Source of the DNA: an uncultured Chloroflexota bacterium
Lineage (GTDB): Bacteria > Chloroflexota > Anaerolineae > Aggregatilineales > Phototrophicaceae
DNA: 5,561 nt
NCBI GenBank assembly: GCA_903904765.1
Contig: CAIVEA010000280.1
Coordinates: forward strand, 1-5,561
Direction: 5' to 3'
The position numbers and the translations under genes were made by a program. The notes beneath the pieces are model-generated. The model worked only from the letters and a program-made list of their open reading frames with translations. It did not search any database and was not told the DNA's origin. This document shows, piece after piece, positions 4 through 5,561 of this stretch (positions within the stretch are counted from its first letter, which is position 1; each line of letters starts with the position of its first letter).

Positions 4-40
4 CCCTTCGCCCTGAGGGAGAAGGGCAGGGGATGAGGGT
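4..40. repeat. Dispersed C/G-rich hairpin repeat, copy 1
   Basis: A hairpin-forming core (4-26) pairs CCCTTC with GAAGGG and, inside it, CCCT with AGGG. A G-rich tail reading GGGGATGAGGGT follows at 29-40. The same unit recurs in the same orientation at 1258-1295 with two substitutions and one extra base. Its position downstream of a minus-strand gene end (rbsK), like copy 2 downstream of the STAS gene, suits a REP-like intergenic repeat that may also end or stabilise transcripts. It lacks the T-run of an intrinsic terminator on the minus strand. That it is a genome-wide family is inferred from only two copies here. Confidence 0.65.
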
Positions 41-2227: not shown

Positions 2228-3280
2228 ATGAATACACAACACTTCTGGCAGGCTATCCTAGATCGTGACCCGCACTTTGATGGGGTTTTCGTGTATGGCG
2301 TTCGCAGCACGGGTATTTACTGCCGTCCCACCTGTCCGTCACGCCGCCCGCGCCCGGAAAATGTGGTGTTCTTCGAGGCGGCGGCGCAGGCACAAGCGGC
2401 TGGTTTTCGCCCCTGTCGGCGCTGTGCGCCCGATCAGCAGCATGCGCCGGATGCCGAGATCGCTCGCGCCGTCTGCACCCTGATCGAAACATCCGATGGG
2501 AAGCGGTTGACGCTGGATGAACTGGGCGAACGGCTACACCTCAGCCCATTTCATGTGCAGCGGGTGTTCAAGCGCGTGATGGGTGTATCTCCCGCGCAGA
2601 TGATGCGCCAGCGCCGCCGCGAACGCGCCAAGACCACGCTGCGTCAGCAGCCCAACATCAGCGCCGCCGCGTATGAGGCGGGTTTTGGTTCGAGCAGTCC
2701 GTTTTACAGCGAGTCACGGGCGCACTGGGGCATGACCCCCGCCGCGTATCAGCAGGGAGGGGCAGGCATGGAGATGTGTTTTACGGTGCGCGAATGCGCG
2801 TTGGGGCAGGTGCTGGTGGCGCGGACTGGTCGCGGCATCTGTGCGGTCACGCTGGGTGAGTCGGCGGCGGCGCTTGAAGTGGCGCTGCGGGTGGAATTTC
2901 CGGCGGCGGACATCCGGCAGGCGGACGAGGATGCGCTCCTGCGTGGTTGGTCGGATGTGCTGCACACGTATTTGGCGGGAGGCGCTCCGGCAGTGCTGAC
3001 GGCGCTGCCACTGGATATGCAGGGAACGGCGTTTCAGGCACGAATCTGGCAGGTGTTACGCGAGATTCCGGCTGGCGAGACCCGCACGTATGGCGAGATC
3101 GCCCGTCAGATCGGGCAGCCCACCGCCGCCCGCGCTGTTGCTCGCGCCTGTGCTACCAACCACATCGCGCTGCTCATTCCGTGCCATCGGGTGCTGCGCG
3201 AAGGCGGGGGACTCAGCGGCTACCGCTGGGGCGTGGATCGCAAGGCGGCGTTGCTCAAACGCGAACGCGAGGGCGCTTAG
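2228..3280 (+). CDS. ada: Bifunctional Ada: methylphosphotriester/O6-methylguanine-DNA methyltransferase and transcriptional activator
   Basis: This 350-residue protein has the standard full Ada layout. The N-terminal zinc domain (about 1-75) carries C32 and C36 in YCRPTC and C63 and C66 in RPCRRC. C32 matches E. coli C38, which takes methyl groups from phosphotriesters and turns Ada into an activator. An AraC-type helix-turn-helix domain spans about 78-175 (LTLDELGERLHLSPFHVQR at 95-112, then YEAGFGSSSPFY at 149-160). The C-terminal O6-alkylguanine methyltransferase (about 182-345) has GTAFQARIWQVLREIPAGE and the active-site PCHRV, with C319 accepting the methyl group from O6-methylguanine or O4-methylthymine. 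Each methyl transfer uses up its cysteine. All key residues are present. An Ada box lies upstream, so the gene is probably self-induced by methylating agents. Its stop overlaps that of the convergent Uma2 remnant. Confidence 0.96.
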   Translation: MNTQHFWQAILDRDPHFDGVFVYGVRSTGIYCRPTCPSRRPRPENVVFFEAAAQAQAAGFRPCRRCAPDQQHAPDAEIARAVCTLIETSDGKRLTLDELGERLHLSPFHVQRVFKRVMGVSPAQMMRQRRRERAKTTLRQQPNISAAAYEAGFGSSSPFYSESRAHWGMTPAAYQQGGAGMEMCFTVRECALGQVLVARTGRGICAVTLGESAAALEVALRVEFPAADIRQADEDALLRGWSDVLHTYLAGGAPAVLTALPLDMQGTAFQARIWQVLREIPAGETRTYGEIARQIGQPTAARAVARACATNHIALLIPCHRVLREGGGLSGYRWGVDRKAALLKREREGA

Positions 3281-3354
3281 TCGGGGAAAATGACGCTCAA
3301 CGGAAGGGTGAATCCGGGCAGCACGTCGCCGCCATCGAGGGTGCTATCGCGGTC
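3277..3354 (-). pseudogene. C-terminal remnant of a Uma2-family (DUF820) gene
   Basis: The minus strand here encodes DGGDVLPGFTLPLSVIF and a few more residues before a TAA stop. This strongly resembles the C-terminal end of Uma2-family proteins, which have a PD-(D/E)XK nuclease-like fold and commonly finish with a DVLPGF-L-P motif. The frame stays open further upstream (to about 3486), but what it encodes there does not look like Uma2. No nuclease core is present, so this is a scrap of about 25 residues. Its TAA (3277-3279) overlaps the TAG of ada (3278-3280), as expected if an intact gene once converged on ada. Upstream it runs into the outer 38-bp repeat, so the body of the gene was probably lost in the rearrangement there. 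Confidence 0.6.
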
Positions 3355-3446
3355 ACGCGGCTGGCTGACGATGCTGCCGTGATCGGTTTTTCGCGCAGAA
3401 CCATCCTGTAGTCTCCCAAACTCATGCTGTCGGGATGCTATGAGTA

Positions 3447-3484
3447 TATCACTCCAGCCCCACCCACGCGCCTTCGGGCAGCAT
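3447..3484. repeat. 38-bp perfect direct repeat, outer copy (displaced DUF1684 3' end)
   Basis: This is identical, base for base, to 3999-4036. On the minus strand it encodes MLPEGAWVGLE followed by a stop, the exact C-terminus of the DUF1684 protein, but here it is detached from that gene. It begins two bases after the stop codon of the DUF2442 gene. With the inner copy it brackets a 552-bp unit holding DUF4160 and DUF2442. Confidence 0.9.
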
Positions 3485-3486
3485 GG

Positions 3487-3747
3487 TCAGACTGTTTCGG
3501 CCTGTGGGTTTATCAAGCGAGGGGGGATACCTTTCATCATCTCATCCACATCCAACCCGTCATCTAGTTCAGGCCAATACACGCTGAGTTCATAACATTC
3601 CACATGGGCGCGTTGTTCGGCGGTGGCGTTCGCTAACCAAGGATGCCAGTCCAGCGGGTTGCCGATGATGCGCCCATCTGCGAGGCGCAGGATGACCATT
3701 TCGCCATCAAAGCGAACCTCAACCACTTGATTTAAGGATTGGTTCAT
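3487..3747 (-). CDS. DUF2442 domain protein
   Basis: This small acidic protein (86 residues from the chosen start) has the pattern of DUF2442: an N-terminal beta-rich half (VVEVRFDGEMVILRLADGR), then the P-L-W-P-L-ATAEQR block (33-49 or so) and the C-terminal VYWPELDDGLDVDEMMKG. The molecular function is unknown. The family often sits next to DUF4160, and such pairs have been suggested to be toxin-antitoxin-like, which this sequence does not prove. Two ATGs are adjacent (3750 and 3747). GGAGG lies two bases from the first and five from the second, so the second is preferred. It follows the DUF4160 stop by about 15 bases and is surely cotranscribed. Base composition is lower in G+C than the flanking genes. 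Its stop abuts the outer 38-bp repeat. Confidence 0.82.
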   Translation of the reverse strand: MNQSLNQVVEVRFDGEMVILRLADGRIIGNPLDWHPWLANATAEQRAHVECYELSVYWPELDDGLDVDEMMKGIPPRLINPQAETV

Positions 3748-3762
3748 CATGCCCTCCGCATT

Positions 3763-3990
3763 TCAATACAGTCTGTGCCACTCCGATAATAGAAAGTCGT
3801 AATTCTCACGGATAATGTTGAGAATCTTACTTTGCTCATTGGCGTTAAATCCCCCATTCCGTTCAAATTCAACTGACTCTAATAGCACTTTTGCCAGCTT
3901 GCCCTCGCGCCGAACATGAACATGCGGAGGTGGATGATCTGAACTGAACATGATGAATTGATAACCACCCACACGAAGAACTGTAGGCAT
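3763..3990 (-). CDS. DUF4160 domain protein
   Basis: This 75-residue protein has the hallmark DUF4160 N-terminus MPTVLRVGGYQFIMFSSDH, followed by PPHVHV (21-26) with two conserved histidines, and ends with an F-L-W-H helix (67-72). The biochemical role is unknown. Pairing with DUF2442 is recurrent, and a toxin-antitoxin-like module is one proposed reading. A longer frame starting at 4041 exists, but it overlaps the DUF1684 coding end and lacks family similarity, so the ATG at 3990 is chosen. The only Shine-Dalgarno-like sequence, GGAG, sits in the last codons of DUF1684 inside the 38-bp repeat, 13 bases upstream, suggesting translational coupling. By hand count 3781-3960 is about 43% G+C, far below DUF1684 next door, pointing to a foreign origin. 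Confidence 0.85.
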   Translation of the reverse strand: MPTVLRVGGYQFIMFSSDHPPPHVHVRREGKLAKVLLESVEFERNGGFNANEQSKILNIIRENYDFLLSEWHRLY

Positions 3991-3998
3991 TTTGATTG

Positions 3999-4036
3999 TA
4001 TCACTCCAGCCCCACCCACGCGCCTTCGGGCAGCAT
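3999..4036. repeat. 38-bp perfect direct repeat, inner copy (true DUF1684 3' end)
   Basis: This covers the last 11 codons and the stop of the DUF1684 gene plus two bases beyond. It is identical to 3447-3484 at an offset of 552 bases, and similarity ends abruptly at both edges. Full identity, including third codon positions, implies a recent duplication or a functional constraint on the sequence. It also holds the GGAG that precedes DUF4160. Confidence 0.9.
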
Positions 4037-4531
4037 CTCACCCGCCCGCAGCGCCACCGTCAGCCGATTTTCGGCGGGCGTAATCGGGCAACTCCAGCCG
4101 GGGCCGTAGGCGCAATACGGGTTGTAGGCGCGGTTGAAATCCACATGCAGCCGCCCGCCGCCTAGCTCATCCGGTTCGATGTAGCGCCCCGCCGGATAGG
4201 TTTCCGTTCCAGCCAGCGCGTCCACGAACGGCAGGAAATAGCCGTAGTCAGCCTCGTAGACCGTCAGCCGCGCCAATTCGTCGCCCACCATAAAGGTGAT
4301 CTCGCCCACGCGCTGATACTCGCGCACTGTGCCGGTGGTCGTCTGTACTGGAATCACCTTGATGTCCGAAAAGGGGTTCAGCGGCAAAATCAGGTCGAGC
4401 GCGGGGTTGTAGGGGAAGTAGCGCAGGGCGGTGAAGGCAGCCTGTTGCGCGGGCGTGAGGGGGGACTGGGCGTGGGTACGGAAGAACGCATCCTTCTGGC
4501 GGCGTTCGGTGGTGATCTGGGCTTCGTTCAT
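4001..4531 (-). CDS. DUF1684 domain protein
   Basis: This 176-residue protein has the full set of DUF1684 blocks: RQKDAFFRTHAQSPLTPAQ near the start, RYFPYNP (37-43), an A-L-V-YEADYGYFLPFVDALAG core, TYPAGRYIEP (111-120), DFNRAYNPYCAY (131-142) and CPITPAENRL (148-157). Length is typical of the compact form. The function of the family is unknown. No signal peptide or membrane segment is visible, so it is probably cytosolic. The ATG has GAGGAG eight bases upstream, so the start is secure. It probably leads an operon with DUF4160 and DUF2442 (10-base gap). The C-terminus is intact despite the cassette directly behind it, because the 38-bp repeat preserves the last codons. Confidence 0.9.
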   Translation of the reverse strand: MNEAQITTERRQKDAFFRTHAQSPLTPAQQAAFTALRYFPYNPALDLILPLNPFSDIKVIPVQTTTGTVREYQRVGEITFMVGDELARLTVYEADYGYFLPFVDALAGTETYPAGRYIEPDELGGGRLHVDFNRAYNPYCAYGPGWSCPITPAENRLTVALRAGEMLPEGAWVGLE

Positions 4532-4760: not shown

Positions 4761-5561
4761 CTACTTGGCACGCAGTCCTTCGGCCACCAGATTGACCGTG
4801 TGGTGCGTGCGGAACAGGCTGTACTGCCCACCCCTGCCGGGAACCATGTTCAGGACATTTTCAGTTTCCATCACCGAGAACCAGAAATCCAGCACCCACG
4901 ACCCATTGGGGTCAATGTTGCGTACGCTCTGTTCGTTGATGGGCGTGTTGCGTTCGTACAGCGCCAGCAGCAACCGGATGAACGAGTCGCGCTGCGCCAG
5001 CACGTTCCGGCAAACCTCGGAGTCCATGTGGAGCGAGATGCCTTTGGTCATGAAGTCGCTTTGCGGGTTGGAATATTCTGAGACGGCGGCGGATTCGTTG
5101 TCCTTCAGGTATTCCACCGCCCGCTGGAAGGCCATGCCCGTGTCATACACGCGCAGGCGGCGGTGCAAGCTGCCCAGCGGACACCATGTGAAGTTGCGGA
5201 AGCTGGTGAACTGCTCCACGCTGATGATGACGCGCCGCACCATGTCGGCGGTGTCTGGGTTGGAGTGTTCCAGTTCTGCCATCGAAATGCCCGCCCAGTT
5301 GATCTCCTCCATCAGATGCTCGTCCTCACCGAGGGGCGGCATCGCAGGCAGTTCCAGATCGGGGCGCAGCTTAATCACCGGAACCAGATCGTCCGGGTTG
5401 TGGCGGTGCGGGATGAGTTCGCGCACCAGAATATGCTCGCGCACGAGGCAATCAATCCACTCGGAACGCCACTGGTCGCTCAGGTTGCAGCCCGGGCGCT
5501 CCAGATCACGATCCATCGCCAACCCCTTGAGCAGGAAGCCGTAATTCACGTATTCCCACCC
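4761..5561 (-). CDS. Protein of unknown function, C-terminal part (N-terminus beyond window)
   Basis: I do not recognise this family. The frame is open to the right edge and ends with TAG at 4761, giving 266 visible residues. A GTG at 5549 could start it, but there is no Shine-Dalgarno in front, and the codons before it (GWEY) read on naturally into VNYGFLLKGL. A longer protein is therefore more likely. Two compact helical/strand segments resemble winged-helix units. One is near 25-62 counted from the GTG (QWRSEWIDCLVREHILVREL, then IPHRHNPDDLVPVIKL). The other is near 186-250 (QRDSFIRLLLALYERNTPI, then WVLDFWFSV and GGQYSLFRTHHTV). This is a guess from pattern only. There are no transmembrane segments or obvious catalytic motif. 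It reads toward DUF1684 with a 229-bp gap, so it is probably a separate transcription unit. Confidence 0.7.
   Translation of the reverse strand, partial: GWEYVNYGFLLKGLAMDRDLERPGCNLSDQWRSEWIDCLVREHILVRELIPHRHNPDDLVPVIKLRPDLELPAMPPLGEDEHLMEEINWAGISMAELEHSNPDTADMVRRVIISVEQFTSFRNFTWCPLGSLHRRLRVYDTGMAFQRAVEYLKDNESAAVSEYSNPQSDFMTKGISLHMDSEVCRNVLAQRDSFIRLLLALYERNTPINEQSVRNIDPNGSWVLDFWFSVMETENVLNMVPGRGGQYSLFRTHHTVNLVAEGLRAK

Follow-up and report, generated by a model that had tools for sequence, protein, structure and literature searches.

The DUF1684 locus and its cassette

The window (the whole stretch of DNA that was analysed, 5,561 nucleotides from an uncultured Chloroflexota bacterium) carries on its minus strand a DUF1684 gene followed by ten bases, a DUF4160 gene, a DUF2442 gene, two bases and a second, outer copy of the end of DUF1684 (Table 1). 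DUF4160 (PF13711), DUF2442 (PF10387) and DUF1684 (PF07920) all passed their Pfam cut-offs. The 38-bp repeat that an earlier note on this DNA had reported at 3447-3484 and 3999-4036 was searched for with up to three mismatches allowed; it was found exactly twice in the window, both times as an exact match, and was absent from 200 shuffled sequences, which excludes a chance repeat. As had been stated, it consists of the last 11 codons and the stop of DUF1684, to which two bases past the stop have to be added, and the spacings of two bases (DUF2442 stop to outer repeat) and ten bases (DUF1684 stop to DUF4160) were confirmed. The similarity was also said to stop sharply at each edge; at 3447 it runs on for six further bases, of which four match, and the longer register (3441-3484 against 3993-4036) is identical at 42 of 44 positions. 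Only the two small genes lie between the copies, with no further long frame, and frames and Pfam comparison agreed with the note in placing no recombinase gene there. Seven window proteins were compared with Pfam and none was an integrase; the insert contains no transposase frame and no inverted pair of at least 14 nt joining its ends.

Table 1. Features of the DUF1684 locus in window coordinates
Feature	Position	Strand	Remarks
DUF1684 gene, host, 3' end duplicated	4001..4531	-	PF07920 133.8 bits; G020 protein 93% identical
Gene-proximal 38-bp copy	3999..4036	-	DUF1684 last 11 codons, stop and 2 bases; exact match
DNA absent from the G020 site	3485..3998	-	514 bp; 48.8% G+C against 58.8% for the window
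DUF4160 gene, 75 aa, predicted DhiTA-type toxin	3763..3990	-	PF13711 61.5 bits, cut-off 23
DUF2442 gene, 87 aa, predicted DhiTA-type antitoxin	3487..3750	-	PF10387 53.5 bits, cut-off 23.9
Distal 38-bp copy	3447..3484	-	Next comes the native 3' flank, as after DUF1684 in G020
Imperfect repeat extension past the 3447 edge	3441..3446	-	4/6 bases; partner 3993-3998
Uma2-like gene remnant beside the insertion	3277..3404	-	191-aa frame at the equivalent place in G020

A 266-aa open frame upstream of DUF1684 (4761-5561) had no Pfam match. A palindrome-like intergenic repeat is present in three copies in the window (4-32, 1217-1239 and 1258-1286), with CCCTTCGCYCTGAGGGAGAAGGG in the two best copies.

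Judged by its domains, the pair is of the known DhiTA toxin-antitoxin (TA) type, an identity that the earlier note had not given: the DUF4160 and DUF2442 genes are adjacent and the toxin gene comes first. According to excerpts of the published reports, DhiTA has its toxin gene first and is active in Dickeya and E. coli (PMC8198452), and DUF4160 toxicity is neutralised by DUF2442 in homologues (PMC8198452, PMC12724237). For a pair of these families on a Thermus plasmid, excerpts (PMC12724237) state that plasmid persistence was raised, that the second gene was needed in Thermus to tolerate the first, and that neither gene had a visible effect in E. coli. By analogy with these homologous systems, toxin and antitoxin roles are predicted for the window genes. 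The cassette shares both Pfam families and the toxin-first order with DhiTA and the Persistence Enhancing Module, which are known as chromosomal and plasmid loci; flanking copies of a host-gene end are not mentioned in the excerpts. A DNA-level search for the cassette in plasmids found nothing, and neither a 23-mer of the repeat nor DUF4160 had a match in viral contigs.

A DUF1684 search in 101 relatives of one genome yielded G020, a draft genome of a different species from the window and not a strain of it. Its contig L108 is 85% identical to the window left of the site and 89% identical on the DUF1684 side; over the 112 bp up to and including the outer repeat copy the identity is 94%. G020 has a single repeat copy, one base different from the window copies, joined straight to the flank of the outer copy, which is the cassette-free site that the earlier note had predicted. 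The window has 514 bp and one repeat copy more than G020, in which DUF4160 had no match at an E value of 0.001 (draft genome). Since the G020 site is empty, the structure is read as an insertion duplicating the gene 3' end and not as a decayed gene copy, and since DUF4160 is unmatched there as well, the cassette most likely came from outside. The empty site and the recombinase-free insert likewise support the proposal of the note that insertion at the gene 3' end had kept the gene whole. The more economical reading is a gain in the window, and from it we infer that a complete DhiTA module was probably inserted at the DUF1684 3' end together with a second 38-bp copy. Precise loss in G020 through recombination between the repeats is possible; an exact loss, if it occurred, would mean that the structure is able to excise.

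Only the two ends of the Uma2-like gene are left beside the insertion in the window, and G020 has about 420 bp more and the 191-aa frame; the name was given by eye and from a Pfam match of the G049 protein at the equivalent place. The gene upstream of DUF1684 (window 4778-5561) corresponds to L108 8211-8994, elsewhere on the contig, inverted and 87% identical.

The same pair in other genomes

A search for the DUF4160 gene covered 200 relatives of G020 and gave a match in 79 of them. For 42 pair units the upstream sequence was scored against the downstream sequence, with a cross-locus null whose 99th percentile was 26 and whose maximum was 43. Four units had clear flanking-repeat scores (G051, 81; the window, 78; G049, 46; G113, 41), and G113, whose score lies below the largest null value, is also backed by a protein-level match. 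L165 (score 38) was set aside as low complexity. The pair stands directly after DUF1684, as in the window, in four other genomes (G049, G113, G021 and G045) and is followed there by a copy or remnant of the DUF1684 end (such copies of a host-gene end are hereafter called tails). The tail copy of G021 is decayed (score 22) and was recognised by eye, and G045 has a DUF4160 fragment, DUF2442 and then a tail copy with an internal gap. The host gene in G051 is a different gene, not DUF1684; the order there (L142 3265-4723) is host gene, DhiTA, tail, MNT-HepT, tail, so that the same host-gene tail comes after each of two unrelated TA modules, and the DhiT frame is broken. Most distant pairs among the 42 units had no flanking gene-end repeat. 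The expectation that pairs elsewhere would lie between repeats of the end of their host gene therefore held for G051, the window, G049, G113, G021 and G045 and failed for most distant pairs; the DUF58-associated arrays instead carry tails after some inner units.

Compared with 135 distinct DUF1684 ends, the remnant was closest to the gene end of its own genome in 8 of 11 comparisons (with two G049 entries, one of them won by 51 to 50). Only the gene end of the sister genome G020 was closer to the window remnant than its own, and the own gene end ranked 7th in G048 and 5th in G021. One old insertion inherited by all species was rejected, since the remnants are mostly nearest to their own genome's gene end; trees of the cassette and of the DUF1684 gene, built to test inheritance, gave no resolution.

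Arrays of DhiTA units convergent into a DUF58 gene were found in G116, G057, G118, G108 and G106, and all five carry full or partial copies of the DUF58 end after some inner units. The array tail copies match at up to 48 of 48 positions (G108) and 88 of 96 (G116, after a lone DUF2442), and after four inner units of G057 and G108 the separators barely match the gene end (13-18 of 48). Neighbouring units in G116, G057, G118 and G108 have protein identities of 37.5-50.6% for DUF4160 and 44-63% for DUF2442. The first two units of G057 align with each other at 71% DNA identity, as do the first two of G108, so unit duplication is possible for those two pairs, whose separators are among those that barely match the gene end. 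Seven inner array units have 32-33 nt from the stop to the next start, and in eight of the nine genomes with a DUF58 neighbour (DUF58-convergent loci L151-L155, L163, L166, L169 and L170) the stops of DUF2442 and DUF58 overlap by exactly 8 nt, the ninth having a gap of 374.

Other cargo, other host genes and the divergence of the tails

Downstream DNA of 144 DUF1684 loci (969 kb; 135 distinct gene ends) was scanned for a second copy of the locus's own gene end. Clear copies were found in eight (the window, G025, G049, G048, G113, G072, G103 and L053), of which the window, G049 and G113 were already known through the DUF4160-DUF2442 pair; weak ones were found in G045 and L014/L214, and G021 was below threshold. 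In G025 the cargo consists of a PIN-domain gene and a small gene that matched no Pfam family. G048 (L177 4548-12197) carries at the DUF1684 3' end a 7.1-kb element with genes for a large serine recombinase, a Rep-like protein (below the Pfam cut-off), a regulator, a SIR2-like protein and HerA, and a diverged gene-end copy after it; this element, unlike the window cassette, has a recombinase inside. The recombinase frame extends about 197 nt antisense into DUF1684. L053, G072 and G103 have other operons, in whose frames, judged by eye, no recombinase was noticed. An Uma2 gene recurs beside the DUF1684 site in G049 (Pfam) and in G020, G045 and G012 (by eye). Tandem Uma2-like genes follow DUF1684 in L182 (G012) and L205 (G045), and their last approximately 60 nt are far more alike than the remainder.

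As a hot spot, DUF1684 has a weak to modest statistical excess over other gene ends: second copies were counted at 4 of 95 DUF1684 ends against 9 of 1019 others at score 40 (p=0.02) and at 2 of 95 against 6 of 1019 at score 50 (p=0.14), in a case set that omits the window, G049 and G048 and in which the G025 case is not among the top matches. A smaller count at score 40 gave 1 of 60 against 4 of 566.

Between copies of other host-gene ends lie DUF433-DUF5615 in L145 (G024; 66 of 72 positions matching), a PIN gene with a small neighbour in L146 (G188; 47 of 49) and, in L075 1929-4652 (Ca. Kapaibacterium), a BsoBI-family restriction enzyme with a DNA methylase (36 of 36, host-gene 3' end). In 186 loci centred on DUF1684 and DhiTA (1.71 Mb), scanning for repeats found 58 pairs. 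Where one copy of a pair is intergenic and the other lies at a gene edge, the stop is covered in 11 pairs and the start in 1; the 11 are not independent and include the window, two G051 pairs and three DUF58 arrays. Scanning 1805 gene ends gave 25 matches at a score of at least 46, plain tandem paralogues included. Set aside were L050 and one L182 pair (in which the copy belongs to an open frame of some length), L052 (score 52, a short repeat located at the stop), L058 (score 33 against a null maximum of 32) and the repeats of L197 and L157 (nature ambiguous).

For a follow-up in the same bacterial order, the best-scoring, non-random loci (30, 30, 30, 30 and 21) of five families, three TA and two control, were taken; 154 genomes supplied the DUF5615, HepT and thioredoxin loci and 36 the PIN and Nudix loci. 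DUF5615, HepT and PIN were picked since they had earlier been seen as cargo, and the source loci (G024, G051, G025 and G188) are not in the samples; the PIN and Nudix sets were added once the first three sets had been seen. Direct repeats flank 10 of 67 full-length TA loci (DUF5615 6/26, HepT 1/24, PIN 3/17) against 0 of 50 control loci (thioredoxin 0/24, Nudix 0/26; p=0.003), a count that leaves out truncated loci, L275 among them, and retains the hairpin-like L380; without three short or hairpin-like cases (L254, L258 and L380) it is 7 of 67 (p=0.018). Any direct repeat was present at 19 of 81 TA loci and 2 of 60 controls (p=0.0005). Some flanking repeats sit away from gene ends, and in G063 the repeated piece is the start, not the end, of a dnaE-like gene. 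Candidates set aside were L293 (repeat inside one long frame) and L256 and L243 (repeats not flanking the TA genes).

In L375 (G005; 1125-2081) a PIN toxin-antitoxin module has on either side a repeat of about 160 bp, covering the antitoxin gene start and the end of a host gene which, by eye from its C-terminus, resembles xthA. The PIN toxin-antitoxin module of L380 (G020; 1420-2217) is enclosed by two identical hairpin-like repeats of 28 bp. In the truncated locus L275 (440-1506), MNT-HepT lies between 79-bp copies (97%) covering the 3' end of a gene that resembles glmS, again by eye from the C-terminus.

The divergence between tail copies was analysed in 18 comparisons, the cases having been selected because a repeat was seen and G051 being entered twice. 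Coding mismatches fell 18/12/70 on codon positions 1/2/3 (70 of 100 on the third), and of the tail-copy codons with mismatches 64 were synonymous and 26 nonsynonymous. This third-position excess had p=7.7e-14 against an expectation of one third, 3.8e-7 against 0.45 and 3.9e-5 against one half; the DUF1684 cases alone (10/7/41) gave p 0.001 and the other hosts (8/5/29) p 0.01 against one half. The excess was missing in G116 (4,1,3) and G150 (1,1,0), and there were no coding mismatches in the window, G025, L075, G146 and G108. A copy that had gone untranslated ever since its duplication should not show such a bias, so the tails have diverged as coding alleles and not as untranslated copies. The two copies in the window are identical and hence uninformative on import of the tail. 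An identical stretch longer than expected by chance was found in L053 (p=0.0015), G025 (p=0.0135) and, marginally, the window (p=0.047), and not in the other 13 testable comparisons; in G025 and the window the mismatches are few and all beyond the stop.

Possible routes of movement

Many TA and other small defence modules move between genomes without a visible mobility gene, and their manner of moving is an old open question. For the cassettes described here, the gene tail may act as a homology address at which the cassette is exchanged by ordinary recombination, a reading to which we assign about equal chances of being right or wrong. Recombination between two tails would loop the cassette out and leave an intact gene and a small circle in which one tail is joined to the TA genes; this circle, or a linear piece of DNA bearing a tail, would then enter the orthologous gene end in another cell by homologous recombination, presumably dependent on RecA. 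A recombinase gene would be unnecessary, the gene would be rebuilt each time, several modules could stack at one end, and the toxin would punish loss of the cassette. Such an exchange would explain why no recombinase is present, why the gene stays intact, why sites are used again, how arrays arise and why the tails look like alleles. The likeliest origin of the first tail is duplication at insertion. A length of 38 bp is short for RecA and counts against the tail as an address.

A wider proposal, which we regard as doubtful, is that Chloroflexota (Anaerolineae) carry a recombinase-free, integron-like system in which TA and defence cassettes with a borrowed host-gene tail are directed by homology across species and unrelated modules collect in tail-separated arrays. 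Other such modules do lie between copies of host-gene ends in related bacteria, and this may be the way they move. No account of TA cassettes flanked by host-gene ends was found in the titles and abstract openings of open-licence literature among the matches listed. If true, a gene-tail address with ordinary recombination would be a simple answer, the sites would be predictable, and a laboratory strain and a few hundred bases of DNA would suffice for testing the model.

The repeat may instead be a long target duplication made during insertion, by a staggered break or a replication template switch, with the tail as a by-product and not an address; this is possible, but we think it rather improbable. 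For the structure as observed, the closest known kind is the 'insertion with long target duplication' of restriction-modification systems, reportedly described by Nobusato et al. 2000 and Furuta et al. 2010. Features in common, as far as excerpts describe the original cases, are a small self-maintaining module, no transposase or recombinase seen, and long, variable direct copies of the target; the cases here include a relative of a different species (G020) whose site is empty and has a single target copy, and a repeat that is 38 bp long in the window and varies from about 28 to 160 nt elsewhere. In favour of duplication at insertion are the variable lengths and the perfect copy of the window, which ends two bases beyond the stop, and the restriction-modification pair of L075 has this anatomy with a fully matching tail. 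Long, variable target duplications of restriction-modification systems, of the order of 100 bp in one report (PMC3874152), are described in excerpts of PMC3874152, PMC1643837 and PMC3031569. The differences, with the originals compared by such descriptions only, are that the cargo in the window is toxin-antitoxin and not restriction-modification, that the duplicated piece is a reused gene 3' end, and that modules stack in arrays and copies differ as coding alleles. Against duplication at insertion stands the third-position bias of the diverged cases, which even when measured against one half is unexpected from untranslated decay alone; gene ends are, moreover, reused across species, and different modules gather at one end. 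If true, the address reading would extend the pattern of long target duplication from restriction-modification to toxin-antitoxin modules and arrays.

Site-specific integration in trans, in which a recombinase encoded elsewhere would use the DUF1684 or DUF58 3' end as attachment site and carry the cassettes as passengers, in the manner of integron cassettes, is unlikely. Integron gene cassettes are small and recombinase-less, and integrase-lacking arrays with a repeated separator exist; the cassettes here resemble them in size, in lacking a recombinase and in the repeated element between units, but their separator is the host gene's coding end and the insert is without an integrase gene. Integrative elements may rebuild a gene 3' end and leave a direct repeat at the far end, as is seen here, whereas the window cassette has no integrase and is about 0.5 kb long. 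The large serine recombinase at the DUF1684 3' end in G048 and the largely constant DUF58 geometry (overlap and inner spacing) favour integration in trans. Nevertheless, a recombinase of the G048 type (E up to 1e-40) had a match in a single genome, G048 itself, among 396 sampled from the class, and is unsupported as a general mover; the 5' edge of the DUF1684 repeat lies between 28 and 136 nt ahead of the stop, depending on the case, although decay may have shifted some edges, and, judged by eye, no motif is common to the DUF1684, DUF58 and other tails.

Tandem duplication of DUF1684 and its neighbours with loss of all but 38 bp, named in the earlier note as a refuting alternative, agrees with an outer copy that is a gene-end fragment followed by the native flank, but it is very improbable and was rejected as the source of the cassette on the empty site and missing DUF4160 match of G020, which has neither a tandem copy nor the cassette, and in most cases adjacent array cassettes differ from each other much more than the best tail copies do.
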